Positions 4,489 through 27,097 of a stretch of DNA of 30,128 bases are shown here, one piece after another; positions within the stretch are counted from its first letter, which is position 1, and every line of letters starts with the position of its first letter. The notes beneath the pieces were generated by a model, which was not told the DNA's origin, did no database searches, and saw only the letters and a list, made by a program, of their open reading frames with translations. Source of the stretch: a virus; the IMG/VR virus record IMGVR_UViG_3300042197_001175, positions 1 through 30,128 of that record, one strand, 5' to 3'. Position numbers and translations under genes: made by a program.

Positions 4489-4734
4489 TTACTCTGCTGG
4501 AGTTTCTTCTGAAATTCCTACGTATCCAGGCTGCGTTCTATCTAAATTTGGATCTTCTTGTGGACCAGCATATGGAGATATAGTATTTACATCAATGTTG
4601 ATCCATGACAATACTACTTGATCATCTGGAGTAGTCTCGTTAAATGTACCATCTTGATAAATAACTTTTACTCTAGAATTATTTGCATCTGTATAAATAA
4701 TATTTTGAATTGGAGAACTATAATTTTGAAGCAT
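4489..4734 (-). CDS. Small fibre-cassette protein (81 aa), possible fibre accessory
   Basis: 81 aa, acidic, no membrane segment. It begins MLQNYSSPIQNIIYTDANNS and has an IYTDANNSRVKVIYQDGTFNETTPDD stretch, then a Pro/Glu-rich tail. It overlaps the end of the 470 aa LamG gene by 16 bp and has a strong GGAAGGG ribosome site, so it is a real coupled gene. It occupies the same slot as the 66 aa gene of the other cassette, and both start with short ligand-like or chaperone-like segments, although I see no clear similarity between them. Small proteins after phage fibre genes often act as fibre assembly factors; that is an analogy only. Confidence 0.7.
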   Translation of the reverse strand: MLQNYSSPIQNIIYTDANNSRVKVIYQDGTFNETTPDDQVVLSWINIDVNTISPYAGPQEDPNLDRTQPGYVGISEETPAE

Positions 4735-6130
4735 ACGCTACCCTTCCTATGTTGTCAATAAATGATATACTTTCTACTCTATAAAGATTTGCTGTTGAAA
4801 TATTTGTAGATGTAGCAATTATTTCACCTAATTTTAATTTATTAACATCATTTCCATAAAACATATGTGATGATGATCCTGTTGGACCATATGTTGTATT
4901 AGAAGATGTTGCTGAAACAATATCTAAAGAAACTGTTTCATTATTGTTTCTATAGTATCCAGTTCCTGCAACTCCTAATCCATTATAGCTTGCTTTGGTT
5001 GACGGTGTTGCTGCTGCAAAAATAATTCTATCGCTAGAAGTATAATCTAGTGGGGTTGCAGACTGGAAAATATTAAGAACTTCTGCTTGAGTTAATGCTT
5101 TATTGTATAACAAGAATTGTTCTACTGTTGAATTTGCCCATCTTGAACTTGCTGGATCTTGACCTAAGTATACAGTTTCAAAAGTATGAAATTCTGTACC
5201 AGCAGATGCTGTTAATAATGATGCATCTCCATCTTTTGCAACGTATACCGTTACAGTTAATCCATCATTTACAATTGCACCAAACACTACATCTCCTGGG
5301 GCATAGTTTACTGAGGAAATTTGAATATCTGTATTTGGGTCTGTGTCATCTTTAAATGCTTGAATTTTTGTTGCACCCTCTTGATAATTCAGAGTTAGAT
5401 AATCAGTGGATGTATTGTATAGTGTAAAAAATGGATGATAATCTTGTGCTTGAGTACTGCATTGTGGTCCAATTTTTGTCCAAATTAAAGCTGTGTAGTC
5501 TGGACCAGTTTTAGGAATTGTATAAGATAATTGTCCACCTAATCTAGCTTCTTGGTTCTGAAATGCTGTTGCATATCTTAAATTTTCTACCTGTACTTGA
5601 TCAACATAAAATATTTTACCAGTATCATTTGTAGTATTAACATTTAATAAATTTAAAGTTGCTGTATAGCTAGCACCAGAAGTATTTGAAGAAACTGATA
5701 TAGAATTCCATACATTTGGAGTTAATGTAAGAGATGTACTATCAGTATTTCCATCCATTACAATATCTAATCTTGTTTGAAGAGCATGCTCGCTAAATAT
5801 TTTTAAAGAAGCTGTTTTATAACTAGATACACCAGTATTATATGCAGAAGAAGTTGGGAATTTAATATTAGGACTTGGATTGCTGCCATCGATCATGTAC
5901 CTTGCAGCGCCAACCCCATAAAGTCCAGCCTGTGCATCATAAAATCCAGTTACACCAGTTGTCGAAAATGTTGAATAATCTGCAGTAGCATCATGCTTAT
6001 AAATTGTATTAGTTGTTGGACCATAAATTGCAGGAGATAGGTCATATTTACATGTACCATACCACAAATTACCATTTAAGGTTGGCGTTATTGTTCCGTA
6101 TCTATCAAAAGTATTATATGTTGTTGGCAT
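4718..6130 (-). CDS. LamG-like fibre protein, cassette copy A
   Basis: 470 aa and clearly paralogous along its whole length to the 477 aa product of 12732-14165. Both start MP(T/S)TY..(F/Y)DRYG.I(T/S)PT, share GFYDAQ.G.YGVG.ARYM, KIF(Y/F)VD.VQVE..RY.T.F, FKDDTDPNTD(I/L)QISS, FETVYLGQDP.(S/N)S.WAN, and end (A/S)(Y/F).SKL. The middle (about residues 210-360) has a LamG/concanavalin fold pattern ending FLLYNKALTQAEVLNIFQ; the region around residues 90-200 resembles a carbohydrate-binding beta sandwich. Likely a receptor-binding component. The ATG is preceded by GGAGGAAGAA. It overlaps the following 81 aa gene. Confidence 0.82.
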   Translation of the reverse strand: MPTTYNTFDRYGTITPTLNGNLWYGTCKYDLSPAIYGPTTNTIYKHDATADYSTFSTTGVTGFYDAQAGLYGVGAARYMIDGSNPSPNIKFPTSSAYNTGVSSYKTASLKIFSEHALQTRLDIVMDGNTDSTSLTLTPNVWNSISVSSNTSGASYTATLNLLNVNTTNDTGKIFYVDQVQVENLRYATAFQNQEARLGGQLSYTIPKTGPDYTALIWTKIGPQCSTQAQDYHPFFTLYNTSTDYLTLNYQEGATKIQAFKDDTDPNTDIQISSVNYAPGDVVFGAIVNDGLTVTVYVAKDGDASLLTASAGTEFHTFETVYLGQDPASSRWANSTVEQFLLYNKALTQAEVLNIFQSATPLDYTSSDRIIFAAATPSTKASYNGLGVAGTGYYRNNNETVSLDIVSATSSNTTYGPTGSSSHMFYGNDVNKLKLGEIIATSTNISTANLYRVESISFIDNIGRVAYASKL

Positions 6131-6146
6131 TTCTTCCTCCGTTTAT

Positions 6147-6152
6147 ATTATA
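6147..6152 (-). promoter_or_regulatory. Possible -10 box before LamG gene copy A
   Basis: TATAAT in the 30-bp gap before 6130, followed by AAAC and the GGAGG ribosome site. No -35 is recognisable. The paralogous gene at 14165 has TATAAT in the same place, which is the main reason to list it. Confidence 0.3.
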
Positions 6153-6160
6153 CACCATTA

Positions 6161-6799
6161 TTACTTTGAGCCTATTCCGTAAAGTGTAATCTTTGATATT
6201 TCTTTAAATTTAACATCGCTTTCCCAGGAAAAGTCTAGGCGGGTTACTGGGTTTTTTACTACGTCGTTATTATAATATGCAAATCCCCATGGGATTGTAT
6301 AATCTAAACTGTTTAAATTCCAAGAATTTCCATATGCAAGCCTGAAGTTATTTGGAAGGGTAGAAGAATAATTTGGGATAGTAATATCTCCTATTGAGCC
6401 CCATGAAGTTTGTGTATGGTTTCTGCAGTACATAAAATAGTGTCTGTCTGTATTATCTGAGTTATGTCCTGGAGTACCAGTTGCTACAGTACCTCCACGG
6501 GAATAGTATCTGTTGTTTGTTGTATCGTTGTTGTACCACCAAGAAATTCTGTACTGGCTTGTGTTTGCGGTATTGTGAGACATGTAAGAAAACTGAATTT
6601 TAATATCTCTGTATGTTTGAGGAATATTAGAAAAGGTTAATGTTCCAGTTCCATCAATCATCTGAGGATTGGTCATTCCACTAACTGCATTAATAGTTCC
6701 CAAAGTAGGGCTAGTTTCAGCCAGAAGGACGTAAGAAGAGTAATTTTGAGTTACTGGCACGGAACTTGATAAAGTACCACCTATTTTTCTAACTGTCAT
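6161..6799 (-). CDS. Fibre protein with IPQxYxDL...LYGI module, cassette copy A
   Basis: 212 aa. Paralogue of the 211 aa protein at 14189-14824: both begin with a Thr-rich RK/RF GGTL stretch and share NYSSYVL(L/I)AET.PT.GT.N..SGMTNP.M(I/V)DGT. They then carry the module F..I(P/S)Q.YRD(I/L)(K/R)I.F..M.HNT.NTS.YRI and finish with SDV......SKI(T/S)LYGIG. The same module, more diverged, occurs in three upstream genes (17492-18013, 18015-18488 and the C-terminus of 18492-20093). It is probably a jelly-roll-like fibre tip domain; the fold is inferred from the alternating beta pattern. It follows the 373 aa gene with a 1-bp gap and a weak TAGGA ribosome site. Confidence 0.75.
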   Translation of the reverse strand: MTVRKIGGTLSSSVPVTQNYSSYVLLAETSPTLGTINAVSGMTNPQMIDGTGTLTFSNIPQTYRDIKIQFSYMSHNTANTSQYRISWWYNNDTTNNRYYSRGGTVATGTPGHNSDNTDRHYFMYCRNHTQTSWGSIGDITIPNYSSTLPNNFRLAYGNSWNLNSLDYTIPWGFAYYNNDVVKNPVTRLDFSWESDVKFKEISKITLYGIGSK

Positions 6800-6800
6800 A

Positions 6801-7922
6801 TTATCCTACCGTTAACTCTGATCCAAATAGCTGGAACTGTACTTTATCGGTATCTGATTGAACAATAACTTTATCTCCAGCGGCTAATGAAAGTCCTATT
6901 GTCATTGTTTCTGCAGATGTTTGAACAATTGGGTGGTCAAATGCTATCATGCTTTTATGGCTTAAGGATTCTCCATACTTAACAACTGCAATTCTGTAAG
7001 TAGCAGAAGATGATCCAATATTGCTTACTACAATTGAAGATGCTACTGCAGCTCTATTATCTGGACAAACATAAAGATTTACCCAAGGACCTGTGACTTT
7101 TCTTACTGTTGGTGATCCATAAGTAAGTCCTGACCATCCTTCTGATCTTGTTGTATAAGGACTTGTATAAAGAGCATTTGGATTTCCTGAATTTCCATCA
7201 ATTGGTCTGCGTGGAAGCAGTGCTTTTGGAATAGCACCTTCAATTAAAGAGATATTATCTAAATGTAAATAAGTCCAATCATTATAGCCAGCGTTATAAG
7301 GTTTTACTTGAAAATCAAAGTATCCGCCTTGTCCTGTAAATGTTTGATAATGTCTTCCCCAGTGTCCCCAAATATTATTGTGGTTTCCTACTGGGCTGTC
7401 CCATCCAGGATTGTATGTAAGTCCATTTCCATGCATTGAAGCATCGCCTTTTTCTTCAATAATATTAAACCATGAAGATCCATTATATGCAGTTACGCTC
7501 CAGTGATTGTTGCTTTGATATCCATGATATCCGCCTGTAAATTTACCCCATAATGAAAGTGTATATGGTTGTCCTGCTTTTAAATAAGGTTTTGTTGTTG
7601 TTGCTAATCCATTACTAATTCTCCACATTGGTCTATAGTTACTGTTATGTGAATCAAATCTTATTGAATTTGTTCTACCAGTTGTATTTTCACTTGATGG
7701 AGCATGCTCTCCAGTTAGATAATAAATTGGGTTATTTTCATTAACTCCTGAATGGTGACTATGGTGTCCAAAAAGTGGTCCTGGGGTAGCATGAGCAGTT
7801 CCACCATGAGAAGTACTTGTTGCATAAAACTCTAAATTTGGATCTGGAAATCCATTAAGAGTGGTTTCTGCTGTTGCTACAGATCCACTAGCCTGACCTA
7901 AAACTTTAATATACTCTGCCAT
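6801..7922 (-). CDS. Fibre/adhesin protein with LGQASG start, cassette copy A
   Basis: 373 aa. Paralogue of 14834-15937. Shared parts are the N-terminus (Y.K(V/I)LGQASG), a LNGF.DP..E(F/Y)Y segment, a carbohydrate-binding-like core (KAGQPYTLSLWGKFTGG, LHLDNISLIEGAIPKALLPRRPIDG), a junction YTSPYTTRSEGW and a C-terminal domain with LYVCPD...ATYRIAV.K(Y/F)GE.LSHK.M.AFDH and AGDK.IVQSD.DK. The C-terminal domain is typical of phage fibre or head-fibre beta domains. A His-rich stretch near residues 44-58 (GPLFGHHSHHSG) is present only in this copy and could bind metal. The ribosome site GGGAGC lies inside the last codons of the preceding gene. Confidence 0.75.
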   Translation of the reverse strand: MAEYIKVLGQASGSVATAETTLNGFPDPNLEFYATSTSHGGTAHATPGPLFGHHSHHSGVNENNPIYYLTGEHAPSSENTTGRTNSIRFDSHNSNYRPMWRISNGLATTTKPYLKAGQPYTLSLWGKFTGGYHGYQSNNHWSVTAYNGSSWFNIIEEKGDASMHGNGLTYNPGWDSPVGNHNNIWGHWGRHYQTFTGQGGYFDFQVKPYNAGYNDWTYLHLDNISLIEGAIPKALLPRRPIDGNSGNPNALYTSPYTTRSEGWSGLTYGSPTVRKVTGPWVNLYVCPDNRAAVASSIVVSNIGSSSATYRIAVVKYGESLSHKSMIAFDHPIVQTSAETMTIGLSLAAGDKVIVQSDTDKVQFQLFGSELTVG

Positions 7923-7923
7923 G

Positions 7924-8610
7924 TTATGCTCCCATTAGTAAGAATGTTCCGTATTTACCTCCGCCAGTTGATATTTCAAGGTTACCACCTAATGATACCG
8001 CAGATCCATTTATGGTGATGCCTGAATTTACAAGGGCTGAGTTTGGAATATTAGTAAGCGTATTTTGAGAGCCGCTAATGCTCTTATTTGTAAGGGTATC
8101 AGATGTATTTCTACCTATAAGGGTGTCGGTAGAGTTTGGAAGGGTAATTACCCTATCATCTGTTGGCTCTCCAGCACTTAATGTAGTTTCGTATGAGTCT
8201 GCTGTTGTACCCTCAAAAACAATACTTTGTGAAAATGCTATTTGTAGTCCGCTTGCTTGACCAGTAAAAGTAGGGTTATCAATAACTGGACTGGTTAGAG
8301 TCTTATTTGTCATGGTCTCTGTTCCAGTCAAAGTTACAAAGTTATCATCTGAAAGAGCCGTATTGAATTGTGCTACTGTTCCAGATAATGTATTGTTTGA
8401 AAGATTAATTGTTTTGTTTGTAAAAGTATCTATTGTGTTAGGAGTAAGTCCTGCATATTCTAGAGAAGTCCATGCTATGGTTCCACGGCCAATTTTAAAT
8501 CTGCCAGTGTCTTTCTCAAAACCCCATTCACCTGCCGCTAATGTTGGATTAGAAGCGGTCCATTCTGCTGCTGTACCTCTGCGAATCTGAAATCTTGAAT
8601 TTACGCTCAT
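7924..8610 (-). CDS. Fibre protein with hyaluronidase-like/TNKT repeats, ends LLMGA
   Basis: 228 aa. It begins MSVNSRFQIRRGTAAEWTASNPTLAAGEWGFEKDTGRFKIGRGT, the N-terminal module widespread in phage fibre and hyaluronidase-like proteins (also in the 207 aa protein at 16392-17015). It then has TFTNKTINLSNNTL, TETMTNKTLTSP and NTSDTLTNKSISGSQNTL repeats, a trimeric fibre-shaft type of sequence. The C-terminus KYGTFLLMGA matches that of the 138 aa protein at 15941-16357. The start overlaps the previous gene by 4 bp (ATGA). It is the first gene of cassette A. Confidence 0.75.
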   Translation of the reverse strand: MSVNSRFQIRRGTAAEWTASNPTLAAGEWGFEKDTGRFKIGRGTIAWTSLEYAGLTPNTIDTFTNKTINLSNNTLSGTVAQFNTALSDDNFVTLTGTETMTNKTLTSPVIDNPTFTGQASGLQIAFSQSIVFEGTTADSYETTLSAGEPTDDRVITLPNSTDTLIGRNTSDTLTNKSISGSQNTLTNIPNSALVNSGITINGSAVSLGGNLEISTGGGKYGTFLLMGA

Positions 8611-9863
8611 GCGGCTATCTCTCCTGCATCAAATGTATTTTCGAAGGTTGTTGCGTCTGGCGCTCCACCATCGTATGGAGAAACTGAGTCAAAGTTACCG
8701 CCATCGATTAACTCTGGTGTTCCTCCTGTAATTGTAACATTTATTCGGTTATTAGCCAAGTCATCTTGGACCAATGCTCCGCCAAGGAAATTCAGGGTTG
8801 GACGTTTATTTAAGGCGGTTCCATTTTGTTGTACTGTAGATATTACTCCATTGACCGTAGCAGAAGAAAAGTCTACAGTTCCTGTAAAGGTTGGGCTGGC
8901 AAGAGGAGCTTTGAGAGATAGAGCGTTAGTAATTGTAGTCGCATAATTTGCATCATCTGCTAAAGCTGCCGCTAGCTCATTAAGAGTATTTAAAGCTCCT
9001 GGGGCTCCATCAATTAAATTTCCTAGCTGAGTAACTGGAATATTTCCAGTAGAATCTAAAGAGGCTACGCCGTCAGGTTGACCTACATCTCCAATTGGAA
9101 CATAGTCATCAAGCGTGTTTCCCAGGTTGTCTGTAGTTACAAAATTATTTAATGTATATTTTTCCCATAGATCTGTTACCTGGTTGTATCTGATTGTATC
9201 ACCAGTAGATGGACTTAATGCTGAAACATTATGTAATTCATGAAGCTCAAATCCATTTTGAATGCTTACATTCATTGAGCCTGTATTTTGCTGTCCGCCT
9301 CTTACTACCGCTCCAAGATAAACTAAATGATTAGGTGCAGATGGCTTATTTACAAAACCGAATATTTTAGCTCCAGCTATTCCAAGCCATACTGGATCTC
9401 CGTCTACAGCTCCAGTTGTATCTATGCCTTCGAGTAAACCAAATGTAATTATTTGACCATTTGAATTATTTGATATTGCAGAAGTTGTAAGGCCAAGTGT
9501 TTTTGATGATCCAGATTCTGTAAGATTTGTTGAAGCTGCAACTAATAATTTACCAGACGCACCGTCTGAGCCAACAACATATACTGGTGTTCCTTTAGCA
9601 ATTGGAGATCCGCTTTGATTTCTAACATCTGCATAAATATTTCTTGCTCCAGCTACCTGAGATGTAACTAGACCCTCAAGCTGTGCAATTTTATAATCAT
9701 GTGATGTTACTACTGTAGAATTATTTTGACCAACTTTGGCCTCTAAGGCTTCAATAGCATCGTTAGCATTTACGTGTTGTTCTGCGTGACTTATCTCATG
9801 TAATGGAGTAGTCGAATGTGGGTTAACCAGAACATCTAGGGCGGTTGGGAATAAGGTTGCCAT
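8607..9863 (-). CDS. Long tail fibre-like protein with DDYVPxGDVGQPDG module
   Basis: 418 aa. The N-terminus (FPTALDVLVNPHSTTPLHEISHAEQHVNANDAIEALEAKVG) is a coiled-coil-prone start like those of phage fibre proteins. Residues about 70-210 resemble the adhesin segment IYADVRNQSGSPIAKGTPVYV...WLG. Residues about 245-325 carry the module LGNTLDDYVPIGDVGQPDGVASLDS...LNELAAALADDANY....LKAPLASPTFTGTV also found in 16392-17015 and 20093-21376. The C-terminus is FTGT-type shaft then an acidic tail. It follows the halogenase group and begins cassette A, coupled by 4-bp overlap to the next gene. No Shine-Dalgarno; TATAAT lies 8 nt before the ATG. Confidence 0.78.
   Translation of the reverse strand: MATLFPTALDVLVNPHSTTPLHEISHAEQHVNANDAIEALEAKVGQNNSTVVTSHDYKIAQLEGLVTSQVAGARNIYADVRNQSGSPIAKGTPVYVVGSDGASGKLLVAASTNLTESGSSKTLGLTTSAISNNSNGQIITFGLLEGIDTTGAVDGDPVWLGIAGAKIFGFVNKPSAPNHLVYLGAVVRGGQQNTGSMNVSIQNGFELHELHNVSALSPSTGDTIRYNQVTDLWEKYTLNNFVTTDNLGNTLDDYVPIGDVGQPDGVASLDSTGNIPVTQLGNLIDGAPGALNTLNELAAALADDANYATTITNALSLKAPLASPTFTGTVDFSSATVNGVISTVQQNGTALNKRPTLNFLGGALVQDDLANNRINVTITGGTPELIDGGNFDSVSPYDGGAPDATTFENTFDAGEIAA
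8881..9123 (-). repeat. DDYVP...FTGT module, copy 3 (in the 418 aa gene)
   Basis: This segment encodes DDYVPIGDVGQPDGVASLDS through LASPTFTGTV and is similar at protein and DNA level to 16499-16783 and 20556-20802. Boundaries are approximate. Such dispersed copies can serve as recombination substrates between fibre genes. Confidence 0.7.
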
Positions 9864-9895: not shown

Positions 9896-10600
9896 TTAGT
9901 TATATTCTTTTCTGAACCATCCACTATTTTTGTACCAACCTGTAAAAACTGAGTTCATTGCATATATAGCTTTAGGGAAAGTCTTTAATAATGAGCTATC
10001 TGCCGATGACTCCCAAGATTCTCTTTTAAAAGGAACTACCTGCAAAATAGGGCTACCCTTTGGAATGATTCCTTCAAAATCTTTTCTTAAAAATACTGGA
10101 TAAGCTCCTGGTCTTAAAGGCTCTAAATCTGCATCTACAATTCCAGATAAAGCAATAAATGGAAGATCTAATCTATTTAAAGGTTGAGTAATCAAAAGAC
10201 TATATCCTTTAGGAGTTTGAACATGCATTGTATGTATAAATATAAAATGTATGTCATAACAATAATCTGGAATTTTAATATTACCAACATTTTTGACATC
10301 TCTAATACTTAAAATTTGATGATCTTGATTAAAAGTTATTTTAGGACTAGATCCAGGAACTCTTTCTACAGAAATGTCTGTAGGAGTTTCTACAATATAT
10401 CCAGTCAAAAATGCATCTGTAAATGGCATGCAATGTTTAAAGTTTAGTCTTTTAGAGTCATGCATATTATTTACTTTAACAGATGTTGTTGATTTAAACC
10501 AATCTGGTATATGTTTTTTAGCGGGTACTGGAATACTGGAATGTAATAAAGTGCTATTTAAATCTGAGCCAGAGGCTGCAAATTTTATTTTTTTAGCCAT
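9896..10600 (-). CDS. Unrecognised 234 aa protein linked to the halogenase
   Basis: 234 aa, soluble, no signal peptide. Seen: KKHIPDWFK near residues 28-36, LNFKHCMPFTDAFLTGYIVETPTDI near 52-76, a His-rich strand YCYDIHFIFIHTMHVQTPKGY and a C-terminal PFIALSGIVDADLEPLRPGAYPVF...IPKGSPILQVVPFKRESWE, ending in aromatic-rich GWYKNSGWFRKEYN. The pattern of short strands with HxxFIHxMH and a PxGxPxxQVxPF turn suggests a beta-barrel (cupin-like) enzyme or binding protein, but this is inference. It is third in a tight operon with the halogenase and the membrane protein (1 bp gap, no clear ribosome site, likely coupled), so it may act in the same modification pathway. Confidence 0.75.
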   Translation of the reverse strand: MAKKIKFAASGSDLNSTLLHSSIPVPAKKHIPDWFKSTTSVKVNNMHDSKRLNFKHCMPFTDAFLTGYIVETPTDISVERVPGSSPKITFNQDHQILSIRDVKNVGNIKIPDYCYDIHFIFIHTMHVQTPKGYSLLITQPLNRLDLPFIALSGIVDADLEPLRPGAYPVFLRKDFEGIIPKGSPILQVVPFKRESWESSADSSLLKTFPKAIYAMNSVFTGWYKNSGWFRKEYN

Positions 10601-10601
10601 A

Positions 10602-10904
10602 TTATAAAATTAATCCAAAGTGTTTAGCTATGTAGGCTATTGCTAATCCGCTCCAAAGAATATTAAACCAAATAAGGGTAGGAATAGTTTTTACAGTAGA
10701 AGACCATATGAGCCCTAGGCTTGAAACTAGGGCAAAGATGTAGAACCACCATATACTTACATCAAACATAAGTCCTGGAATAATGATGGCGGCCTTGGCA
10801 ACAAAAGCTAAAAATTCTACAGTATTAGCCCTAGTCCAATATTTTTTGTGGCCCATTGTTTTTAAAGCCACAACCCATTGCATATGTTTTCTAGTCTTGG
10901 CCAT
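10602..10904 (-). CDS. Three-helix membrane protein linked to the halogenase
   Basis: 100 aa. A basic N-terminus (MAKTRKHMQW, then HKKYWTRAN) is followed by three hydrophobic segments, about residues 28-47 (VEFLAFVAKAAIIIPGLMF), 50-68 (SIWWFYIFALVSSLGLIWS) and 75-92 (PTLIWFNILWSGLAIAYIA). No family recognised. It overlaps the 3' end of the halogenase by 14 bp and has no separate promoter, so the two are made together. A role in bringing the halogenase or its substrate to the membrane, or in export, is possible; the sequence does not decide. Confidence 0.75.
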   Translation of the reverse strand: MAKTRKHMQWVVALKTMGHKKYWTRANTVEFLAFVAKAAIIIPGLMFDVSIWWFYIFALVSSLGLIWSSTVKTIPTLIWFNILWSGLAIAYIAKHFGLIL

Positions 10905-12453
10905 TATAAAACTTTTTCTTTAAATACTCATAATGAGATGGAAGTTCAGATGCTTCATCATTCCATATTTTTTTAGATTTATTGCTTCTAAATTCAAATC
11001 CTGCAGCAACGGTATGGACATCTTGATCTTGACTCCAATCCCATAATTTAAGGCTGGTTTTATTTAATGGTGTAAGTTCATGTCCAACCATTACGCAAGC
11101 TACTCCTAAATTTTGAGGACTAAATCCAAATAAATGGTTTGTAAACATTCCTGAAATTTCTTCTTTATGCCCAGCTGGAGATTTTTTATCTGTCATATAT
11201 CTCCAAAACTCTGTGTCTTTTCTTTCGCTATGAGAATAATGAATTTCAACAAAATCAAAGAATCCCATAAATACTTTTTCGCATCCCTTATTAAAAATAT
11301 CTTTCATGGGCTTATTGTTTAAGTCCTTATCCAGTACTTTTACTAATGCAATTAAATATTCATGAGTTGTGTGTAGCCCATTACTTTCTAGAGGCTCAAT
11401 AAAGCCAGCAGAAAGACCGATAGTAACAACATTCTTATTCCATACCTCTGACATCCTACCAGTTTTAAATTTAACTTGATTAAATTTTAAATCTATCAGA
11501 TCCTCTTCAGTTCTTGGGACAACCATTTCATCGGAACAAAGGTGGGCTTTAAATTCTTCCAAAGCCTCTTCGTCTGTCGTGAACTTATCGCTATAAACGT
11601 ATCCAGTTCCAATTCTTGAATACAGAGGAGTATTCCAAACCCAGCCATTTCCAAGAGCTGTACAATTTGTATAATTCTCTAATTCTTTTTCTACATTCTT
11701 ATATGGTATTTGAACTGCCCATGCTTTATTACAAGGAAGTCTGTCTGACATATCTAAAAATTCTACTTCCCCAACAGCATTAGCAAGCAATGCTTTGAAG
11801 CCAGTACAGTCAATATAGAGATCGGCAGAAATTTCTTGACCGTTATCTAAAACAAGAGCAGCTACTCCATTTTCATCAGTTTTAACTTCAGATACAGTAG
11901 CCTCTATTCTCTTTACACCTTTAGGAATAGAAAATTTATTTCTCAACCATTCAGCAAATTTTATTGCATTAAAATGTAATGCATAATCTTTATCTCCATT
12001 AAATTCCGCTATAGCTCCTGACCTATTTACTGTATATTTACCCTTATTTACTATTGCCATTTGTGGAAAATATGTTTCTGCAAAATCTGTGAATGGAGTC
12101 TCTGGACTTAATGCTTTTTTAATAAACCAGTCTTGGAATCCAAATTGTGAATCTCCTAGGTAAGCTTTACCAAATGGGTAATGAAATCCGTCATCTTTCT
12201 TTCTATGAAAGTTTTTAAATCTAATACTTAATTTATAAGAGGCATCAGTATCAACCATAAAGTCATCAATATTTGCATCAATTGATTTAAGCCATGTAAG
12301 TATTCTTTGTTGTGTGCTTTCGCCTACCCCAATTGTAGGAATATCTGGACTTTCTACTAGGGTAATATTATATTCTGGATAATGAGATATTAGTGTGGCT
12401 GCTGTCATCCATCCAGATGATCCTCCGCCTACAATTACGATTGATTTTGACAT
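10891..12453 (-). CDS. Flavin-dependent (tryptophan-type) halogenase
   Basis: 520 aa from ATG at 12453. The family uses FADH2, O2 and halide to form HOX, relayed by a lysine to an aromatic substrate. Seen: FAD-binding GGGSSG (residues 9-14), IPTIGVGEST (38-47), ASYK with the expected catalytic Lys74, WVWNTP (271-276) in place of the usual WxWxIP, and GFIEPLESNGLH (350-361) with the expected catalytic Glu356. All key parts are present, so an active enzyme is likely; the Ile to Thr change in WxWxIP is a mild departure. A marine cyanophage member (VirX1) is known to halogenate, with preference for iodide. Tryptophan need not be the substrate. An upstream in-frame TTG at 12474 is rejected because it lies in the -10 box; AGAGGA precedes the chosen ATG. 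No reductase gene is in the window, so reduced flavin must come from elsewhere. Confidence 0.92.
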   Translation of the reverse strand: MSKSIVIVGGGSSGWMTAATLISHYPEYNITLVESPDIPTIGVGESTQQRILTWLKSIDANIDDFMVDTDASYKLSIRFKNFHRKKDDGFHYPFGKAYLGDSQFGFQDWFIKKALSPETPFTDFAETYFPQMAIVNKGKYTVNRSGAIAEFNGDKDYALHFNAIKFAEWLRNKFSIPKGVKRIEATVSEVKTDENGVAALVLDNGQEISADLYIDCTGFKALLANAVGEVEFLDMSDRLPCNKAWAVQIPYKNVEKELENYTNCTALGNGWVWNTPLYSRIGTGYVYSDKFTTDEEALEEFKAHLCSDEMVVPRTEEDLIDLKFNQVKFKTGRMSEVWNKNVVTIGLSAGFIEPLESNGLHTTHEYLIALVKVLDKDLNNKPMKDIFNKGCEKVFMGFFDFVEIHYSHSERKDTEFWRYMTDKKSPAGHKEEISGMFTNHLFGFSPQNLGVACVMVGHELTPLNKTSLKLWDWSQDQDVHTVAAGFEFRSNKSKKIWNDEASELPSHYEYLKKKFYNGQD

Positions 12454-12473
12454 TATGTCCTCTCGACATGTCA

Positions 12474-12502
12474 ATTATAGCAAAACTGGAACTTCCAGTC
12501 AA
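12474..12502 (-). promoter_or_regulatory. Strong sigma70-type promoter of the halogenase operon
   Basis: Minus strand: -35 TTGACT (12497-12502), exactly 17-bp spacer, -10 TATAAT (12474-12479) preceded by TGC, which also fits an extended -10. Transcription would start near 12467, giving a leader of about 14 nt containing the AGAGGA ribosome site. It separates the halogenase group from the preceding fibre cassette. Confidence 0.85.
12486..12498. promoter_or_regulatory. 13-bp palindrome in the halogenase promoter spacer (possible operator)
   Basis: CTGGAA-C-TTCCAG is a perfect inverted repeat that occupies the spacer and touches the -35 box. A protein bound here would block RNA polymerase. The one-base centre is too short for a useful RNA hairpin, and it lies upstream of the expected start, so a DNA site is more likely. 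Confidence 0.5.
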
Positions 12503-12521: not shown

Positions 12522-12722
12522 TTACTCGGAAGCAGCCTCAGCTGCAATGGCGTCTAACCCAGCCTGTATATAATCTGGGGTATCTGCAACATTTCCTTCT
12601 TCTGAAGCCCATGCAGCATACTCTGAATCATCTACACTTACTTCTTTCCATAGATGTCCATCATCGGATACCTTCATTTTTAATTTAGTTTTTTCTAAAT
12701 TCATCCATTCATATTTAGCCAT
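12522..12722 (-). CDS. Small acidic fibre-cassette protein (66 aa)
   Basis: 66 aa, acidic. It reads AKYEWMNLEKTKLKMKVSDDG then a segment rich in Asp, Glu, Ala and Trp (EYAAWASEEGN), ending GLDAIAAEAASE. No family recognised. It is last in cassette B after the 477 aa LamG gene (9-bp gap, AGGAG ribosome site), the position taken by the 81 aa protein in cassette A. A fibre accessory or chaperone role is suggested only by position. Confidence 0.7.
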   Translation of the reverse strand: MAKYEWMNLEKTKLKMKVSDDGHLWKEVSVDDSEYAAWASEEGNVADTPDYIQAGLDAIAAEAASE

Positions 12723-12731
12723 TTTAATCTC

Positions 12732-14165
12732 CTAAAGTTTGCTAACAAATGCTGATTTTCCAGCGGTTGGAATATCAATAATTTTATCTACTCTATACAG
12801 GTTTGCTACCTCTAGATTAGTAGAAGTTGATATGACTCCACTCATATTTAACTTATCAACATCTGCTCCGAATACAACGTGTGAAGATGTCTCTGACGGA
12901 ACGGCTGCGTTATTTAAATTAATTGCAGGAATTATATCTAAGCTTGCTGTTGAGTTTAAATATCTATATGAACCAGTTCCAGTAATTGATTCTGCTTTTA
13001 AATTTCCAACAAGGGTTGGGGTTGCAGCTGCTAAAATAATTGACTTATCTTCAGAAAAATTTCTTCCATTAGCATCTTGGAAAATTGATAATATTTCTGA
13101 CTCTGTTAAAGCACGATTAAATAGTAGGAAATTTTCTATAGGACCATTTGCCCAATAAGAGTTTACTGGGTCTTGACCTAGATATACTGTTTCAAAGTAC
13201 TCAAAATCTGTGTTTCCAGAAACTGTTTGTAAAGAGGCATCCCCATCTTTTGCAAAGTAAGCTGTCATGCTTGTTCCGCTATGAACAAGTGCTCCAAACA
13301 TAAGGGTTCCTGGCTCTACAGTAAGTGATGATATCTGTAAATCAGTATTTGGATCTGTGTCGTCTTTGAATGCTTGAAGTTTTGTAGAACCTCTTTGATA
13401 ATTTAAAGTTGCATATGAGCTGCTATCTGCATATAAAGTAAAGAATGGGTGTGTACCGCCAGCAGCTGAAGATACCTGTGGACCTGCAACTGTCCAGCAA
13501 AGCGCTGTGTAGTCTGCGGTCATTTTTGGAACATTGTAGTTTAAGGTTCCAGCTGCTCTTGCTGGCGCATTAACAAAAGGAGTTTGGTATCTGTTGTCTT
13601 CTACTTGAACAGAGTCTACAAAGAAAATCTTTCCTGTATCATTTGTTGCATTAAAGTTTATAATATTTAATGTCATTAAAAATCTTACACCGTTCACAGC
13701 AGAAGTAACGGCAATATTAGTCCATTTTCCAGGAACTAAAGTAACTGAAGTGCTATCAGTTCCACCGACCTGAGTACCACCGCTATCTTGTAATTGAATA
13801 TCTAAACGTAATTGTAATGCATGATCACTTTTTACTCTCAAGCTTGCTGTTTTATAAGAGTTTGTTGAAGTATTGTAATATGAAGCTGATGGGAATTTAA
13901 TATTTGGAGAAAGAGATGTTCCATCTAGCATGTAGCGGGCTGAGCCTACGCCATAAACGCCATTTTGTGCATCATAAAATCCAACAATTCCAGTTAAATT
14001 AAATGTTGAATAGTCAGCTGTTGCGTCAGCTGCAAAAATTCTGTTGTTTGTTGCCTGTGAAACTACAGGGGCAAGACTATACTTACATTTAGCAAGCCAT
14101 GTCTCACCTGTAAATGTTGGTGATATCTGTCCGTATCTGTCGTATAAATGATATGTTGATGGCAT
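12732..14165 (-). CDS. LamG-like fibre protein, cassette copy B
   Basis: 477 aa. Full-length paralogue of 4718-6130, with the same order of segments (DRYGQISPTFTGETW, GFYDAQNGVYGVGSARYML, FFVDSVQVEDNRY, FKDDTDPNTDLQISS, FETVYLGQDPVNSYWANG, FLLFNRALTESEILSIFQ). Compared with copy A it has a short insertion near residue 126 (QDSGGTQVGGTD). The LamG-like domain lies near residues 215-370. Likely surface-binding. GGAGGAAAT precedes the start, after a gap with a TATAAT palindrome. Confidence 0.82.
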   Translation of the reverse strand: MPSTYHLYDRYGQISPTFTGETWLAKCKYSLAPVVSQATNNRIFAADATADYSTFNLTGIVGFYDAQNGVYGVGSARYMLDGTSLSPNIKFPSASYYNTSTNSYKTASLRVKSDHALQLRLDIQLQDSGGTQVGGTDSTSVTLVPGKWTNIAVTSAVNGVRFLMTLNIINFNATNDTGKIFFVDSVQVEDNRYQTPFVNAPARAAGTLNYNVPKMTADYTALCWTVAGPQVSSAAGGTHPFFTLYADSSSYATLNYQRGSTKLQAFKDDTDPNTDLQISSLTVEPGTLMFGALVHSGTSMTAYFAKDGDASLQTVSGNTDFEYFETVYLGQDPVNSYWANGPIENFLLFNRALTESEILSIFQDANGRNFSEDKSIILAAATPTLVGNLKAESITGTGSYRYLNSTASLDIIPAINLNNAAVPSETSSHVVFGADVDKLNMSGVISTSTNLEVANLYRVDKIIDIPTAGKSAFVSKL

Positions 14166-14183
14166 TTTTATTTCCTCCGTTTA

Positions 14184-14196
14184 CTGTATTATACAG
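14184..14196 (-). promoter_or_regulatory. TATAAT inside a 13-bp palindrome before LamG copy B
   Basis: CTGTAT-A-ATACAG (minus-strand reading) is a perfect inverted repeat; TATAAT is at 14188-14193 and also contains the stop codon of the upstream gene. No -35 recognised. It could be a regulated -10 region or chance. Confidence 0.3.
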
Positions 14197-14824
14197 CACC
14201 TATCCCATAAAGGCTAATTTTTGAACGTTGTCTGTATCCGACATCGCTTTCTACTTTAAAAGTTAATTTAGTTATTGCTTTGTCTGCATCTGCTGAGTTG
14301 TAATAATCAAATTTATATTCAATCATATAGGCAAACTGACTCAAATGACTCCACCTTCCCCAAAATGTTCTCTGGTTCCATCCGCCTCTTGTTTTTGAGT
14401 ATCCTGGAATATATATTTCTCCAGATCCAGTCCATGTTACGTTTTCTGGACGATACATGTATCCATAATAGAAATAGTTTGTGTTATCAACATTCCAAGT
14501 TGATGTCATGCTTTCAGCTCTAGTATAATATCTATTTGTAGTTGTATCTCCATTTATGGTCATCATGATTCTATATCCAGAGGTATTACTTGTATTATGA
14601 CCCATGTTATCAAAAACAATTCGGAGATCTCTATAATTTTGCGAAATATCAGCAAATTCTATAGTATTTGTTCCATCTACCATAACTGGATTAGTCATAC
14701 CGCTGAATGAATTTTTTGTTCCAGCAGTTGGCATAGTTTCGGCAATTAAAACATAGGACGAGTTATTTTGAGTAACTCCACTAGAAGCTCCTCCTAAAGT
14801 TCCACCAAATCGTTTATTAGTCAT
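14189..14824 (-). CDS. Fibre protein with IPQxYxDL...LYGI module, cassette copy B
   Basis: 211 aa, paralogue of 6161-6799 (details there). Here the module reads FADISQNYRDLRIVFDNMGHNT near residues 56-77 and ends KVESDVGYRQRSKISLYGIGAV. The first 50 residues (RFGGTLGGASSGVTQNNSSYVLIAET) match copy A closely, the middle less so, as expected for a receptor-contacting surface. AAGGA precedes the start; the stop overlaps the next TATAAT. Confidence 0.75.
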   Translation of the reverse strand: MTNKRFGGTLGGASSGVTQNNSSYVLIAETMPTAGTKNSFSGMTNPVMVDGTNTIEFADISQNYRDLRIVFDNMGHNTSNTSGYRIMMTINGDTTTNRYYTRAESMTSTWNVDNTNYFYYGYMYRPENVTWTGSGEIYIPGYSKTRGGWNQRTFWGRWSHLSQFAYMIEYKFDYYNSADADKAITKLTFKVESDVGYRQRSKISLYGIGAV

Positions 14825-14833
14825 TTATATTCC

Positions 14834-15937
14834 TTATAGAGTTATTTCTGATCCGTATGCGCTAAATGTAATTTTATCAACATCTGATTGAACAATTATC
14901 TTGTCTCCTGCAGAAAGTGTAATACCAAGTGTTAGTGTTTCTGCTGAGTTTGAATTAATTGCATGATCAAAAGCTAGCATATGCTTGTGAGATAAAACTT
15001 CTCCAAATTTTTGAACTGCGATTCTGTAAGTAGCAGCTGCGGTTCCAATATTAGAGATTGTTATAGTTGATACTACAGTTTCTGTTAAGTCTGGACAAAC
15101 ATAAAGGCTTTGCCATCCTCCTGTTAATCTTCTAATAGTTGGTGAAAGATATGCTGTATCTTGCCATCCTTCAGATCTTGTGGTGTATGGTGAAGTATAA
15201 AGAGCATTAGCGTTTCCAGATGTTCCATCTGTAGCTCTATTTGAAAGAAGAGCAAATGGGACAGCTCCTTCTAATAATTGAATATTATCTAGCCATGCAA
15301 CAACATCTCTACCGCCGTGTGTTGAGTAACATCTTTGATGTAAATTAAAAAATCCGCCAGTTCCTGTAAATGTTGTATAATGTTGTTTCCAGTTATCCCA
15401 GAAACCATTATTTGTTGTAGTTCCCCATAGCCTTGACTCGTTGGCATGGCTATGTCCTGTTGTTTCATATATATTTTGAGTTGTGCCATTACCTGTGTCA
15501 AAGTAAAGGTTTCTATGTGCATGGCTATTATTTGAGTCATTTGTAATTTTAGTCCATAATGAAAGTGTATAGCTCTTTCCAGCAGTTAAATATGGTCTTG
15601 TTACTTCTGGACGAATTCTCCAGTTAGCATCAGAACCAGAATGATGAGACCTTAATCTAAGAGCTGAAGTTCTTCCTGTTAAAGATGCACCAGATGTTGG
15701 GTTATCTCCACTATGATAATACTGTGATGTGTGATCAGAGCTATCATTTCCGCCAGTTACATAAAATAATGGTCCAACTCCACGGTTTCCAATTACGGCT
15801 GTCGATCCGTTAGTTCCCTGATGTTCTGTTTGTGTTGGATAGTATTCAAATTGTGGATCTTGAAAGCCATTTAGCAATTGTGTTCCAGATGCTGCAACTC
15901 CACTTGCTTGTCCTAAAATCTTATAATTTGTTGCCAT
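14834..15937 (-). CDS. Fibre/adhesin protein with LGQASG start, cassette copy B
   Basis: 367 aa, paralogue of 6801-7922. Shared: YKILGQASG, LLNGFQDPQFEYYP, a carbohydrate-binding-like core (LTAGKSYTLSLWTKIT, AWLDNIQLLEGAVPFALL), the junction NALYTSPYTTRSEGW and the C-terminal SLYVCPD...SHKHMLAFDH...AGDKIIVQSDVDK. The region around residues 35-75 differs and is Ser/Gly/His-rich. The ribosome site is inside the LLMGA codons of the preceding gene (GGGGGC). Confidence 0.75.
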   Translation of the reverse strand: MATNYKILGQASGVAASGTQLLNGFQDPQFEYYPTQTEHQGTNGSTAVIGNRGVGPLFYVTGGNDSSDHTSQYYHSGDNPTSGASLTGRTSALRLRSHHSGSDANWRIRPEVTRPYLTAGKSYTLSLWTKITNDSNNSHAHRNLYFDTGNGTTQNIYETTGHSHANESRLWGTTTNNGFWDNWKQHYTTFTGTGGFFNLHQRCYSTHGGRDVVAWLDNIQLLEGAVPFALLSNRATDGTSGNANALYTSPYTTRSEGWQDTAYLSPTIRRLTGGWQSLYVCPDLTETVVSTITISNIGTAAATYRIAVQKFGEVLSHKHMLAFDHAINSNSAETLTLGITLSAGDKIIVQSDVDKITFSAYGSEITL

Positions 15938-15940
15938 TTA

Positions 15941-16357
15941 TTATGCCCCCATCAACAGGAATGGATTTGTTCCACCCGCTGCGCTCATTACTAATGCCGT
16001 TGCTTGTGTCTTTGCAACCTCAATGTCTGCCAGCGCTGTTGTTCTATTTGTATTAATATTTGTTACGCTAGTTGTTCCAGCTGTATTTACTAGACCAACC
16101 TGTGTGGTTCCTGCAGTATTTACTGCTGCTACCTGAGTAGTTCCTGCAGTATTTACTGCTGCTACTTTTGTATCACCAATATCTGTAATAGCATTTGCAT
16201 TGTTAATTGCAGTACCATTTAAAATTGTAGCATATGCCGATTCTAGCGCCTTTAGGATCAAAATCATATCATTGGCGGAAGTTGTGGAATGCAGTTGATT
16301 CATCTTCGCCTGTATGACGGAGTTGAAGTTAGTTAAATCAAACTGTACTGCTGGCAT
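15941..16357 (-). CDS. Short fibre shaft protein with 11-residue repeats, ends LLMGA
   Basis: 138 aa. An N-terminal helix-rich part (FNSVIQAKMNQLHSTTSANDMILILKALESAYATIL) is followed by tandem 11-residue units of the form VAAVNTAGTTQ (about residues 64-107), then an Ala-rich helix and NPFLLMGA. Repeats of this kind build trimeric beta or coiled shafts. The end matches the 228 aa protein that opens cassette A, so this gene takes the same place in cassette B. AGGAG precedes the start, and TGG-TAAAAT lies about 20 nt upstream. Confidence 0.75.
   Translation of the reverse strand: MPAVQFDLTNFNSVIQAKMNQLHSTTSANDMILILKALESAYATILNGTAINNANAITDIGDTKVAAVNTAGTTQVAAVNTAGTTQVGLVNTAGTTSVTNINTNRTTALADIEVAKTQATALVMSAAGGTNPFLLMGA
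16071..16169 (-). repeat. Tandem 33-bp repeats in the 138 aa gene
   Basis: Three successive 33-bp units starting at 16071, 16104 and 16137 (plus-strand coordinates), two of them almost identical, encode the VNTAGTTQ-type units. A fourth, more diverged unit lies at lower coordinates. Unit number may vary by slippage, changing shaft length. Confidence 0.75.
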
Positions 16358-23974: not shown

Positions 23975-24003
23975 ATTATATACCTTTTAGGCGAAAATGT
24001 CTA
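23975..24003 (-). promoter_or_regulatory. Strong promoter for the holin and fibre (late) genes
   Basis: -35 TAGACA (23998-24003, inside the last RNR codons), 17-bp spacer, -10 TATAAT (23975-23980). Five of six and six of six matches to sigma70 consensus. It lies where the RNR gene ends and the structural block begins. Confidence 0.75.
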
Positions 24004-25918
24004 CAATCTCACAATTTCCATCGGAAGTACAAGCAAGAGTTTGGGTTCCGCTAGTTCCATCTTCTGTTTCGTAGAAAGATAAATCTTCCCAACGAATACT
24101 AGATGGCATCTTTGCAAGAAGTTCTAGGTACTCTGTCTCTGTTACCTCTTGATAAGGAGCTTGCTTATATGAATGGTCTGAATGTGGCAGAAATGAAATT
24201 CCAGATACTTCATCAAAATGCTTATACACCCAAGCACCCACTTCCATCCATTCATCTTCTTTTACAGATACAGTAATAGATGGCTTATGTTCGCACCATG
24301 ATCTTTGATATACAAGCCATGTATTTAAATGCTCAATAGCAGTAAGATCATTTCTCAATATAGCACCCTCTGGAGCTTTTACTGGAAATGAAAATACTTG
24401 AGTATCATTTGGCTTCATGAAGTCATCTTCACATGGAATTCCGACTTCTTTTAAAAATGTTGATAGTGGATCTTTTTTGTCTCCACGAACTGTACGGATA
24501 TAATATTGAGAATGCCATGGATGCATTCCAGAAGATACTCCAACTAATTGAGATACGGTTCCAGAAGGTTTTACGCATGTAATTGCTGCAGACTCATTAA
24601 TGCCGATATTTGCAGCCTCTGTTTTATTTGTCTCTCTGGCTAATTCTCTAGCCTTCTCAAGAAAATCAGATAAAGCATTTAGGTCTTCTTTTCCAGACAT
24701 GAACTTATGTCCAAATTGTCCAGTTAGAGATACCCCTAGCAGTCTTTCCTCTTCTGTGTTGTCTTTCCAGATTTTACGCAAATACTTGAAATCTGTAAGT
24801 GTAGATTGCCATGTACCAAGAATAGTAGCTAGTTTAACCTTATTTGAAATATCCTCTAGAGTATCGCTTTCACGAATTACCACTTCGGATAAATTACAAA
24901 ACTGATAAGGTCGTAGGATAATTTCTGAGCATGGGTTAGTTCCGTAGTGGACTTCAGGGTCTCTTCTTCCCCACCTCGCTGCTTGTTTTTGAGCAGCGGC
25001 AACATTGTATATGCCACGCTCACCAGATTTTGAGTCATATAGGTTTTTCCATTCTGCAATAAACTGTTCCATTTCTGGCTTACGAGAATATGCAACTGAA
25101 TTATTTGATAAAGCACGTTGTGAATTGTTTTCCCACCAGTTACCTGATTTAGCTGATGCCATTTCAATGTCATTAATATTAGACAGAGAAATCATTGCAG
25201 ATCTGCGGACTCCACCAACAACTACAACTTCACCAATCTTACACATAATATCATGAGCCTCAATAGGCTTCAATTGACGACCTGCTGCTGATTTAAACTT
25301 TGCAATAGTAAAATCAAAAAGGTTTACTAATGGCTGTGGTCCTGAAGAACGGCCTCCCATGGTTTTTAATCTTGCTCCAGCTGGACGCAGTTTAGAAACA
25401 TCAATTGATGGAATCTGTCCCGCCCAAAGCATAGCAAGAAGTTCTCGGTAGGATTTTGCCCAACCATTCTTTGAATCTTCTACAACAATTACAGTTGTTG
25501 ATTTTTCAAAAGATTCTGGAACGGCAGGTAATTTATTAACATATTTATATTCAACTGAGAAGCCGACTCCAGTTCCACACATTAGGATATACATTGTTTC
25601 GTCAAAAGAACGTGGACTATCTACTGGTACAAATGAGCAGTTATATCCTGCAACATGATCTCTATCTAATGCTGCACCAGCAGTCATGACAGCTCTCATA
25701 GATGGCATTACATTTCTGTCATATACTGCTTGTTTTAGTTCTTCAACAACTTTTTTATCTGGGAAGTAATTATATGATTCAAGATGAGATAGCATATAAC
25801 TAAAATATCGATCTACTGTTTCACCCCATGTTTCACGACGGTTATCTTCCTGCAACCATCTTGCATATCTTGACAATGCAATAAAATTTTCGTATGGGTT
25901 TTCAATAGTCTTTGACAT
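23987..25918 (-). CDS. nrdJ: Adenosylcobalamin-dependent (class II) ribonucleotide reductase
   Basis: 643 aa. It reduces ribonucleotides to deoxyribonucleotides for phage DNA synthesis, using coenzyme B12 rather than an oxygen-dependent partner. Seen: AGYNCSF with Cys94 (redox cysteine), MCGTGVGFSVE (113-123), NPCSEI with Asn328, Cys330 and Glu332 (thiyl radical Cys and its partners), FCNLSEV with Cys341 (second redox cysteine), and a C-terminal ACTSDGNCEIVDI with Cys630 and Cys636 that would re-reduce the active site. Shorter than the Lactobacillus enzyme (about 740 aa), as in many phage forms. No small-subunit gene nearby, consistent with class II. GAGAAGGAAG precedes the ATG. The last codons hold the -35 of the next promoter. 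Confidence 0.92.
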   Translation of the reverse strand: MSKTIENPYENFIALSRYARWLQEDNRRETWGETVDRYFSYMLSHLESYNYFPDKKVVEELKQAVYDRNVMPSMRAVMTAGAALDRDHVAGYNCSFVPVDSPRSFDETMYILMCGTGVGFSVEYKYVNKLPAVPESFEKSTTVIVVEDSKNGWAKSYRELLAMLWAGQIPSIDVSKLRPAGARLKTMGGRSSGPQPLVNLFDFTIAKFKSAAGRQLKPIEAHDIMCKIGEVVVVGGVRRSAMISLSNINDIEMASAKSGNWWENNSQRALSNNSVAYSRKPEMEQFIAEWKNLYDSKSGERGIYNVAAAQKQAARWGRRDPEVHYGTNPCSEIILRPYQFCNLSEVVIRESDTLEDISNKVKLATILGTWQSTLTDFKYLRKIWKDNTEEERLLGVSLTGQFGHKFMSGKEDLNALSDFLEKARELARETNKTEAANIGINESAAITCVKPSGTVSQLVGVSSGMHPWHSQYYIRTVRGDKKDPLSTFLKEVGIPCEDDFMKPNDTQVFSFPVKAPEGAILRNDLTAIEHLNTWLVYQRSWCEHKPSITVSVKEDEWMEVGAWVYKHFDEVSGISFLPHSDHSYKQAPYQEVTETEYLELLAKMPSSIRWEDLSFYETEDGTSGTQTLACTSDGNCEIVDIFA

Positions 25919-26008: not shown

Positions 26009-27013
26009 TTAGAATTTTTCTTCTAAATGTTTAAAAGCATTCTTAGTCAACTCAATCCAATTATATTTATTATGGATTTCAGTCGACTGAGTATAGTAAT
26101 AATTAGATAAACCTTTATAATTAATAGCAGCAAATACCATTAAGTCTTCTAAATGTCCTGCATCTGGTTTATAAAAACTTCCAAGATGAGAATCTCCTAC
26201 CGCTTTAGGAACTCCTTCTGTCTCTGCATCTGTAAGTCTCGACTTTAGATTTAGGGGTCCTAGAAATTCTTTGTAATGTGCCCAATCATATGTTGAGATA
26301 ACTGGCATACCAGTTGCTAAACCTTGTAACGGAATAAATCCAAATCCTTCACCCCAACTAGGATATACAAGAACATGGTGGCGGTGATAAAGATTAACTA
26401 AATTCTCTAAAGTATATTCTTCTGTAATAATCTCTATATTGTCACATATTTTTTCTGGTGTAACTAATTGACCACGTTTATCATACATTCTGATCATATG
26501 ACTATTGTGTGCTTTAATGGTTAAATGATAATCTGGATTATTTCCAAAAAGTTTTATAAAAGTATCTGCAACTAATTGTCCATCTTTTCTTGGAGAAGGT
26601 TCTCCTATATGTAAAAATTTTATAGGCCCATCATTAACAACTCTTTTATATGGCTTCCATATAGATTCTATTCCATGTGGATAAACATAGATTGGTTTAG
26701 TTATTTGATTATTTCTATATACATCTGCCGTCCAATCAGATGTTGCCCAAATCTCATCACAGAGATTCATTCTAGTTTTCCACTCATCCCTAATACCTGT
26801 AGATTCCCAAGGAGTGTATCCAATTTGATATTGATCTTTATGTAATTTATAGTGGTGGGGTTGTGTAAAGTTTATCTGAACTGGAGCTTTAGGGTTTGCA
26901 AAATCTACTTTATGTCCCAATTCTTGAAGGGTACGAACAATATTTTGGCCTGCATATCCAAATCCGACAGCTGGATTTAAGCCTGCCCGTATTGTGTAAT
27001 ATGAAATATGCAT
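26009..27013 (-). CDS. GT-B fold glycosyltransferase (GT4-like)
   Basis: 334 aa from ATG at 27013. The N-terminal half (MHISYYTIRAGLNPAVGFGYAGQN) is a Rossmann start with glycine-rich acceptor loop; GYTPWESTG, EIWATSDWTADVYR and YVYPHGIES are typical of this family. The C-terminal half has FLHIGEPSPRKDGQ (phosphate-binding Arg142/Lys143) and VYPSWGEGFGFIPLQGLATGMPVI. In the EX7E motif Glu222 is present but the second acid is Gln230. Acceptor unknown: virion protein, modified DNA base or host wall glycan are all possible. AGGA precedes the start; an in-frame TTG one codon earlier is less likely. It is transcribed away from the lysozyme-like operon. Confidence 0.85.
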   Translation of the reverse strand: MHISYYTIRAGLNPAVGFGYAGQNIVRTLQELGHKVDFANPKAPVQINFTQPHHYKLHKDQYQIGYTPWESTGIRDEWKTRMNLCDEIWATSDWTADVYRNNQITKPIYVYPHGIESIWKPYKRVVNDGPIKFLHIGEPSPRKDGQLVADTFIKLFGNNPDYHLTIKAHNSHMIRMYDKRGQLVTPEKICDNIEIITEEYTLENLVNLYHRHHVLVYPSWGEGFGFIPLQGLATGMPVISTYDWAHYKEFLGPLNLKSRLTDAETEGVPKAVGDSHLGSFYKPDAGHLEDLMVFAAINYKGLSNYYYTQSTEIHNKYNWIELTKNAFKHLEEKF

Positions 27014-27034
27014 CAATTTTCCTAGTCAACTGAC

Positions 27035-27064
27035 TTGACAGTAACTTACCGCCAATGCTACTAT
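27035..27064 (+). promoter_or_regulatory. Promoter of the lysozyme-like operon
   Basis: -35 TTGACA (27035-27040, exact consensus), 18-bp spacer, -10 TACTAT (27059-27064). The start site near 27071 leaves a leader of about 27 nt with AGAGGAGG. Confidence 0.7.
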
Positions 27065-27091
27065 TATAGTTCGTTATCTCTAGAGGAGGAA
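27063..27091 (-). promoter_or_regulatory. Overlapping divergent promoter for the glycosyltransferase
   Basis: Minus strand: -10 TATAAT (27063-27068) with a poor -35 TTCCTC at 17 bp (27086-27091). It overlaps the plus-strand -10 by 2 bp within the palindrome ACTAT-T-ATAGT, so the two promoters cannot be occupied together. Confidence 0.45.
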
Positions 27092-27097
27092 ATGCCA

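Follow-up and report, generated by a model that had tools for sequence, protein, structure and literature searches.

A conserved three-helix membrane protein as a candidate partner of flavin-dependent halogenases in environmental phages

Why would a phage carry a gene for a halogenase? Cyanophages were found to carry such genes well over ten years ago and, to our knowledge, neither their natural substrate nor their purpose is known. One paper goes no further than to suggest antibiotic protection (PMC2984593), and the reviewed activities of one of the cyanophage enzymes, VirX1, were measured on a panel of test substrates (PMC8407142). The same question is raised by a virus record from IMG/VR that is 30,128 bases long (the window). 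Here, a halogenase gene (HAL) forms a tight minus-strand operon with genes for a 100-aa membrane protein (TM100) and a 234 aa protein (D234), and this operon lies between two blocks of tail-fibre genes.

HAL (10891..12453, minus strand) encodes 520 aa from its ATG, or 527 aa if translation starts at an alternative TTG at 12474. TM100 (10602..10904, minus strand) shares 14 nt with HAL, and D234 (9896..10600, minus strand) follows TM100 after a gap of 1 nt, which bears out the tight three-gene operon proposed in the initial annotation. That annotation also assigned the operon a promoter of its own. A promoter-like site (TTGACT-17-TATAAT, with a TG before the second hexamer; 12474..12502, minus strand) is indeed found 21 nt upstream of HAL, and its score of 11/12 matches was reached in only 0.1% of shuffles of that intergenic stretch. 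Because the region holds no excess of promoter-like sites overall (15 observed vs 18 expected) and by-eye inspection found no copy of the site upstream of HAL in two relatives, we rate a real promoter at this position as plausible only.

The halogenase appears complete. HAL matches PF04820 over its whole length (2.4e-104; 350 bits against a cut-off of 21), and also matches phrog_2928 'tryptophan halogenase' (9e-143) and VirX1 (9e-91), the phage flavin-dependent halogenase of cyanophage Syn10 (PDB 6qgm). VirX1 is similar to HAL in length (~520 aa), is its best solved homologue and shares its catalytic residues at ~39% overall identity. In an alignment of 41 sequences, G9, G11 and G14 of the FAD box (GGGSSG) and the catalytic residues K74 and E353 (aligned with those of VirX1 and Thal) are invariant, while W271xW273xxP276 and F351xE353P354 are conserved; the WxWxIP motif reads WVWNTP in HAL, where both Trp and the Pro are kept and Ile is replaced by Thr. 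By these sequence criteria, HAL is a VirX1-type flavin-dependent halogenase with intact FAD-binding and catalytic residues. Purifying selection acts on both HAL and TM100, and comparison with Pfam and PHROG found no flavin reductase among the three operon genes.

The closest isolate relatives of HAL are cyanophage halogenases (~40% identity), and just 70 of 50,697 isolate phage records contain a relative. A single-sequence scan for relatives returned none; an alignment-based scan found HAL relatives encoded in at least 587 IMG/VR stretches, and phage halogenases as such are thus not rare in metagenomes.

In the AF2 model of TM100, helices span residues 25-47, 52-69 and 75-95 (mean pLDDT 73, i.e., medium confidence), consistent with the three-helix membrane protein first read from the sequence. 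TM100 has no trustworthy match in Pfam, PHROG or the PDB, and a Foldseek search with its model returned no solved fold with a significant score. A resemblance to SemiSWEET (PF03083) was considered and rejected (weak Foldseek E of 3-9; hhalign probability of 1.5%, against 0.4% for a reversed control). Since the fold is not recognisable, any role for TM100 is one that we infer. TM100 is present in 96 IMG/VR stretches, in one copy per contig; the best 80 of the 96 are 64-91% identical, and 28 of its residues are invariant in 46 sequences. It was absent from isolate phages, plasmids, a genome scan of 84,980 species and 397 genomes of one phylum; this cellular scan used conserved peptides, which remote homologues could escape, and the same profile does match phage contigs.

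We found that TM100 is closely tied to halogenase genes. HAL directly adjoins TM100, on the same strand and within 60 nt, at 46 of 80 TM100 loci. When every locus is counted, 65 pairs are adjacent and 61 of these overlap (as called from the longest frame); HAL lies upstream of TM100 in 37 pairs and downstream of it in 28. Where HAL is not adjacent, the TM100 contig often carries a halogenase elsewhere, and a halogenase is present in 17/17 tested TM100 contigs of at least 40 kb (15, plus G590 and G597); some TM100 contigs of 28-35 kb, which are fragments, have none. Four long contigs that share the portal but have no TM100 anywhere along their length have no halogenase either (4/4). Of the loci selected by portal and extending more than 3 kb upstream, six have both HAL and TM100, none has HAL only, one has TM100 only and 42 have neither (p=5e-7, a value that overstates independence because the contigs are related). 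Only 1 of 19 long (>31 kb) HAL contigs without an adjacent TM100 has TM100 elsewhere. Many phage halogenases therefore do without TM100, which is not needed for halogenation in general; in long contigs, TM100 implies a halogenase (17/17) and not the reverse (1/19).

TM100 is also far more uniform than the halogenases that it accompanies. Over 50 non-redundant pairs, mean identity is 65% for TM100 vs 33% for HAL, and dN/dS against relatives in the same set is ~0.06 for TM100 vs 0.38-0.46 for HAL; because dS is similar for the two and near-saturated, this contrast reflects constraint and not recent transfer. TM100-paired halogenases are spread over widely separated clades; the HAL tree (built with FastTree, some branches being weak) requires the TM100 link to have changed at least 9-12 times. 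Furthermore, the pairs occupy two sites in one phage family, the BillNye-like phages: the fibre/portal region, as in the window, and the replication module, where a primase lies on one side and an SSB-like gene or DNA polymerase III on the other (the names primase and SSB are our own reading of the sequences). A constant TM100, varied HAL clades and two sites fit a general halogenase helper better than a substrate-specific one.

Three-helix proteins of ~100 aa are common among holins, and TM100 has just this size and helix count. TM100 and HAL might thus be independent cargo genes that hitchhike at a shared insertion site, with TM100 serving in exclusion or as a holin-like protein, an account that would also suit the exchangeability of that site (described below) and the roughly one third of TM100 loci that lack an adjacent HAL. 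However, it does not sit well with pairs that occur at two genomic sites, in both orders and with overlapping genes, nor with the halogenase found elsewhere in every contig of at least 40 kb that lacks adjacency. TM100 is, moreover, strongly constrained, unlike typical holins, and matches no holin family in Pfam or PHROG. We consider hitchhiking improbable, and a functional link between TM100 and HAL the better reading.

Other arrangements of these genes were also seen. At L089:6423-7868, an in-frame joined HAL-TM100 frame follows an intact halogenase; it has internal deletions, has lost the C-terminus and part of the second flavin region, and may be a fusion, a pseudogene or an assembly error. 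At L042:8304-8831 and five similar loci, a carboxymuconolactone decarboxylase/AhpD-like protein (PF02627) replaces HAL directly downstream of TM100.

Portal, ribonucleotide reductase and DNA polymerase have their nearest relatives in Streptomyces phages, and the portal and polymerase indicate a single BillNye-like, actinophage-related family, to which we assign the window phage; an actinobacterial host is suggested by these nearest phage relatives only. The same portal family is found in 8 of 13 long TM100 contigs. An earlier view that two unrelated phage lineages carry TM100 was dropped, as both have a portal and a DNA polymerase of the BillNye-like type. The operon is part of a gene order in which a glycosyltransferase and a class II ribonucleotide reductase are followed by fibre genes and then by the portal. 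In the window, genes for the class II ribonucleotide reductase (23987-25918; 67% to Streptomyces phages), the glycosyltransferase (26009-27016) and a lysozyme-like protein (SLT_3; 27035-27658) lie by the fibre block.

Upstream of the operon, the fibre block (12522..16357, minus strand) comprises genes of 66, 477, 211, 367 and 138 aa, the 477 aa product having a LamG/ConA domain; the downstream block (4489..9863, minus strand) encodes a 418 aa fibre, a 228 aa Mtd_N protein and products of 373, 212, 470 and 81 aa. The initial annotation described paralogous five-gene cassettes on the two sides. This held for three of the five genes, namely the 470/477 aa pair (4718-6130 vs 12732-14165, 55% identity), the 212/211 aa pair (6161-6799 vs 14189-14824, 48%) and the 373/367 aa pair (6801-7922 vs 14834-15937, 46%), and not for the first and last genes of the cassettes, which show no homology at E 1e-4. 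At only 46-55% identity, the blocks are old duplicates or imports rather than fresh copies.

In the closest relative of the window (the longest contig among the nearest by portal, at 94%), the same two fibre blocks flank the three genes. Most neighbouring genes there are 80-94% identical to those of the window, with some flanking genes at only 32-49%, and the module itself has diverged to 51% for HAL, 51% for D234 and 63% for TM100, with the order HAL-D234-TM100 as opposed to HAL-TM100-D234 in the window. The order HAL-D234-TM100 is also found after one fibre block at L040/L324. A module that is diverged and reordered within mostly 80-94% identical flanks indicates an exchangeable site in which the module has been swapped or evolves fast, in agreement with the initial view of a cargo module in a recombination-prone locus. 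The three genes therefore do occur together in other phages, as a three-gene system would predict; the conserved unit among them is nevertheless the HAL-TM100 pair, and D234 belongs to a broader family.

The position of HAL among fibre genes raises the possibility that the neighbouring tail fibres are its target, through their aromatic residues or their glycans (in relatives together with 2OG-Fe(II) oxygenases), and that adsorption or stability is altered as a result. HAL relatives lie directly after tail-fibre or collagen-like genes in cyanophages such as S-WAM1, S-CREM1, Sf-FP1 and S-RIM44, and HAL gene sets come after tail-fibre or structural genes in most cyanophages examined. Among 104 non-redundant neighbours of phage HAL genes, 31 are 2OG-Fe(II) oxygenases and the rest include epimerases, sulfotransferases and carbamoyltransferases; oxygenases of this type flank bacterial halogenase relatives as well. 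Together, such neighbours and the fibre context amount to a tailoring context, which leaves room for virion or glycan modification. On the other hand, TM100-HAL often lies in the replication module within the same phage family, HAL lies among recombination or photosynthesis genes in S-B64 and S-MbCM6, and modification of fibres in the cytosol would not call for a membrane partner. We thus regard modification of the virion as unlikely, if worth keeping in mind, and favour a role for HAL that involves the membrane.

Comparison with known systems sets the TM100 pairing apart. The VirX1 locus, from a phage of a marine cyanobacterial host, lacks TM100 and, unlike the window, contains a second halogenase and a 2OG oxygenase. 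In Syn10, the VirX1 gene is directly followed downstream by a second full-length halogenase and then by a D234 relative, each of which was deposited as a hypothetical protein (L122:6469-8833). A second halogenase is likewise deposited as hypothetical in P-RSM6, and tandem halogenases are annotated in S-RIM44 and P-TIM40. Bacterial tryptophan-halogenase clusters (Sphingobium, Catenovulum and Maricaulis) contain members of the same Pfam family as HAL that adjoin 2OG/cupin oxygenases, and bacterial halogenase relatives also neighbour SapC and TonB receptors; these clusters differ from the window in having no TM100, and no D234 was seen in them.

D234, which had initially gone unrecognised, could be placed by profile and structure comparison. 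It matches phrog_7084 (2e-30) and, more weakly, PF19541 (DUF6065; 4e-4, 20.3 bits, under the gathering cut-off of 26.6), and PF19541 is matched by 28 of 66 D234 relatives (best 1e-35), placing D234 in the wider DUF6065/phrog_7084 family. Our search of the literature turned up no paper on DUF6065, and the sources consulted assign it neither fold nor function. The AF2 model of D234 (pLDDT 92) matched a dUTPase in the PDB (Foldseek E 4e-5, prob 1.0), and viral models (BFVD) agree on dUTPase/dCTP deaminase. In a profile alignment (probability 34%, weak on its own), GIVDAD and GSPILQ of D234 pair with dUTPase motifs 3 (GxIDSDY) and 4 (GxRIxQ); the motif 3 Asp and the motif 4 Gln (GxPIxQ) are kept, whereas the motif 1 Asp, the RSG of motif 2, the motif 3 Tyr and the GGFGxTG of motif 5 are missing. 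Unlike dUTPases, D234 also has extra N- and C-terminal segments. D234 is thus DUF6065-like, with a fold predicted to be that of a dUTPase and without the full catalytic motifs; it probably binds a ligand and either has no catalytic activity or acts in a different way. A proposed relationship to bacterial SapC was rejected by profile comparison.

Relatives of D234 range to haloarchaeal viruses and to bacterial MAGs, where they are sometimes in tandem and have no HAL nearby. Among 57 D234 genes collected independently of HAL, there were eight HAL-adjacent sides, and D234 relatives are found at 5 of 13 annotated HAL loci of phage isolates, all five in cyanophages and including the VirX1 locus; one copy in an isolate cyanophage is annotated 'triphosphate nucleotidohydrolase'. 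Within the portal family D234 and HAL do not co-vary (p=0.66), which excludes a strict partnership, and these gene neighbourhoods describe D234 as a frequent companion of HAL. On three viral contigs (L156:42-8314, L183:1664-8323 and L142:2281-8664), D234-like genes bracket arrays of three or four consecutive halogenases that differ from one another. Matches similar to the D234 relative of Halorubrum virus HRTV-9 occur in dozens of tailed viruses of haloarchaea. The dUTPase in a record named Campylobacter phage A11a (MG065691.1, 127132-127587) shows 100% identity to Dut of E. coli K-12, so that record may be contaminated or mislabelled.

The predicted dUTPase/dCTP-deaminase fold of D234, with its retained motif 3 Asp and motif 4 GxPIxQ, could mean that HAL halogenates a base or nucleotide and that D234 handles the product. 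The TM100-HAL pairs in the replication module of relatives would be in keeping with such a unit, as would the D234 relative of HRTV-9 (L120:6003-9693), which lies at the end of the tail block with one small gene between it and a class II ribonucleotide reductase. Nevertheless, we find this very improbable: D234 lacks the remaining dUTPase motifs, it does not track HAL within the portal family, the membrane protein is left unexplained, and known members of the halogenase class act on indoles and phenols, not nucleotides (PMC8407142).

Our preferred explanation is a phage-carried halogenation module in which TM100 is a dedicated inner-membrane partner of HAL, a reading that the genomic comparisons make reasonably likely. 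HAL would act as a two-component flavin-dependent halogenase, with FADH2 probably supplied by a host flavin reductase, and would use this FADH2, oxygen and halide to form hypohalous acid and halogenate an electron-rich aromatic. TM100 would act on something common to all paired halogenases rather than on one substrate. This shared need could be to work close to reduced flavin, to halide, or to a substrate or product that is lipophilic; most likely, TM100 would hold HAL at the membrane, or pass on halide, electrons from flavin or such a lipophilic compound. The target would then be a host or membrane-associated aromatic rather than the virion alone. D234 is a frequent accessory that would bind a ligand through its dUTPase-like fold, and the module occupies an exchangeable site among tail-fibre genes. 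More tentatively, and with slightly more doubt than confidence, we propose that TM100 is the first member of a family confined to phages, whose proteins are obligate partners of flavin-dependent halogenases at the membrane, i.e., a constant part that serves many halogenases and allows halogenation at or across the host membrane.

Phage halogenases were already known, and TM100 is the new element; in the limited literature searched, we found no description of a conserved membrane partner of phage halogenases or of a dUTPase-fold companion in the VirX1 locus. With these results, the range of phage halogenases reaches beyond cyanophages to a large group of actinophage-related phages from the environment. 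With TM100 (small, extremely conserved and so far found only in phages) and the dUTPase-fold protein of the VirX1 locus, the question of phage halogenation becomes experimentally approachable, and TM100 offers a first way to test for what purpose halogenated compounds are made by phages. If the proposed role of TM100 is correct, it would define a membrane-coupled halogenation system that has not been described before.
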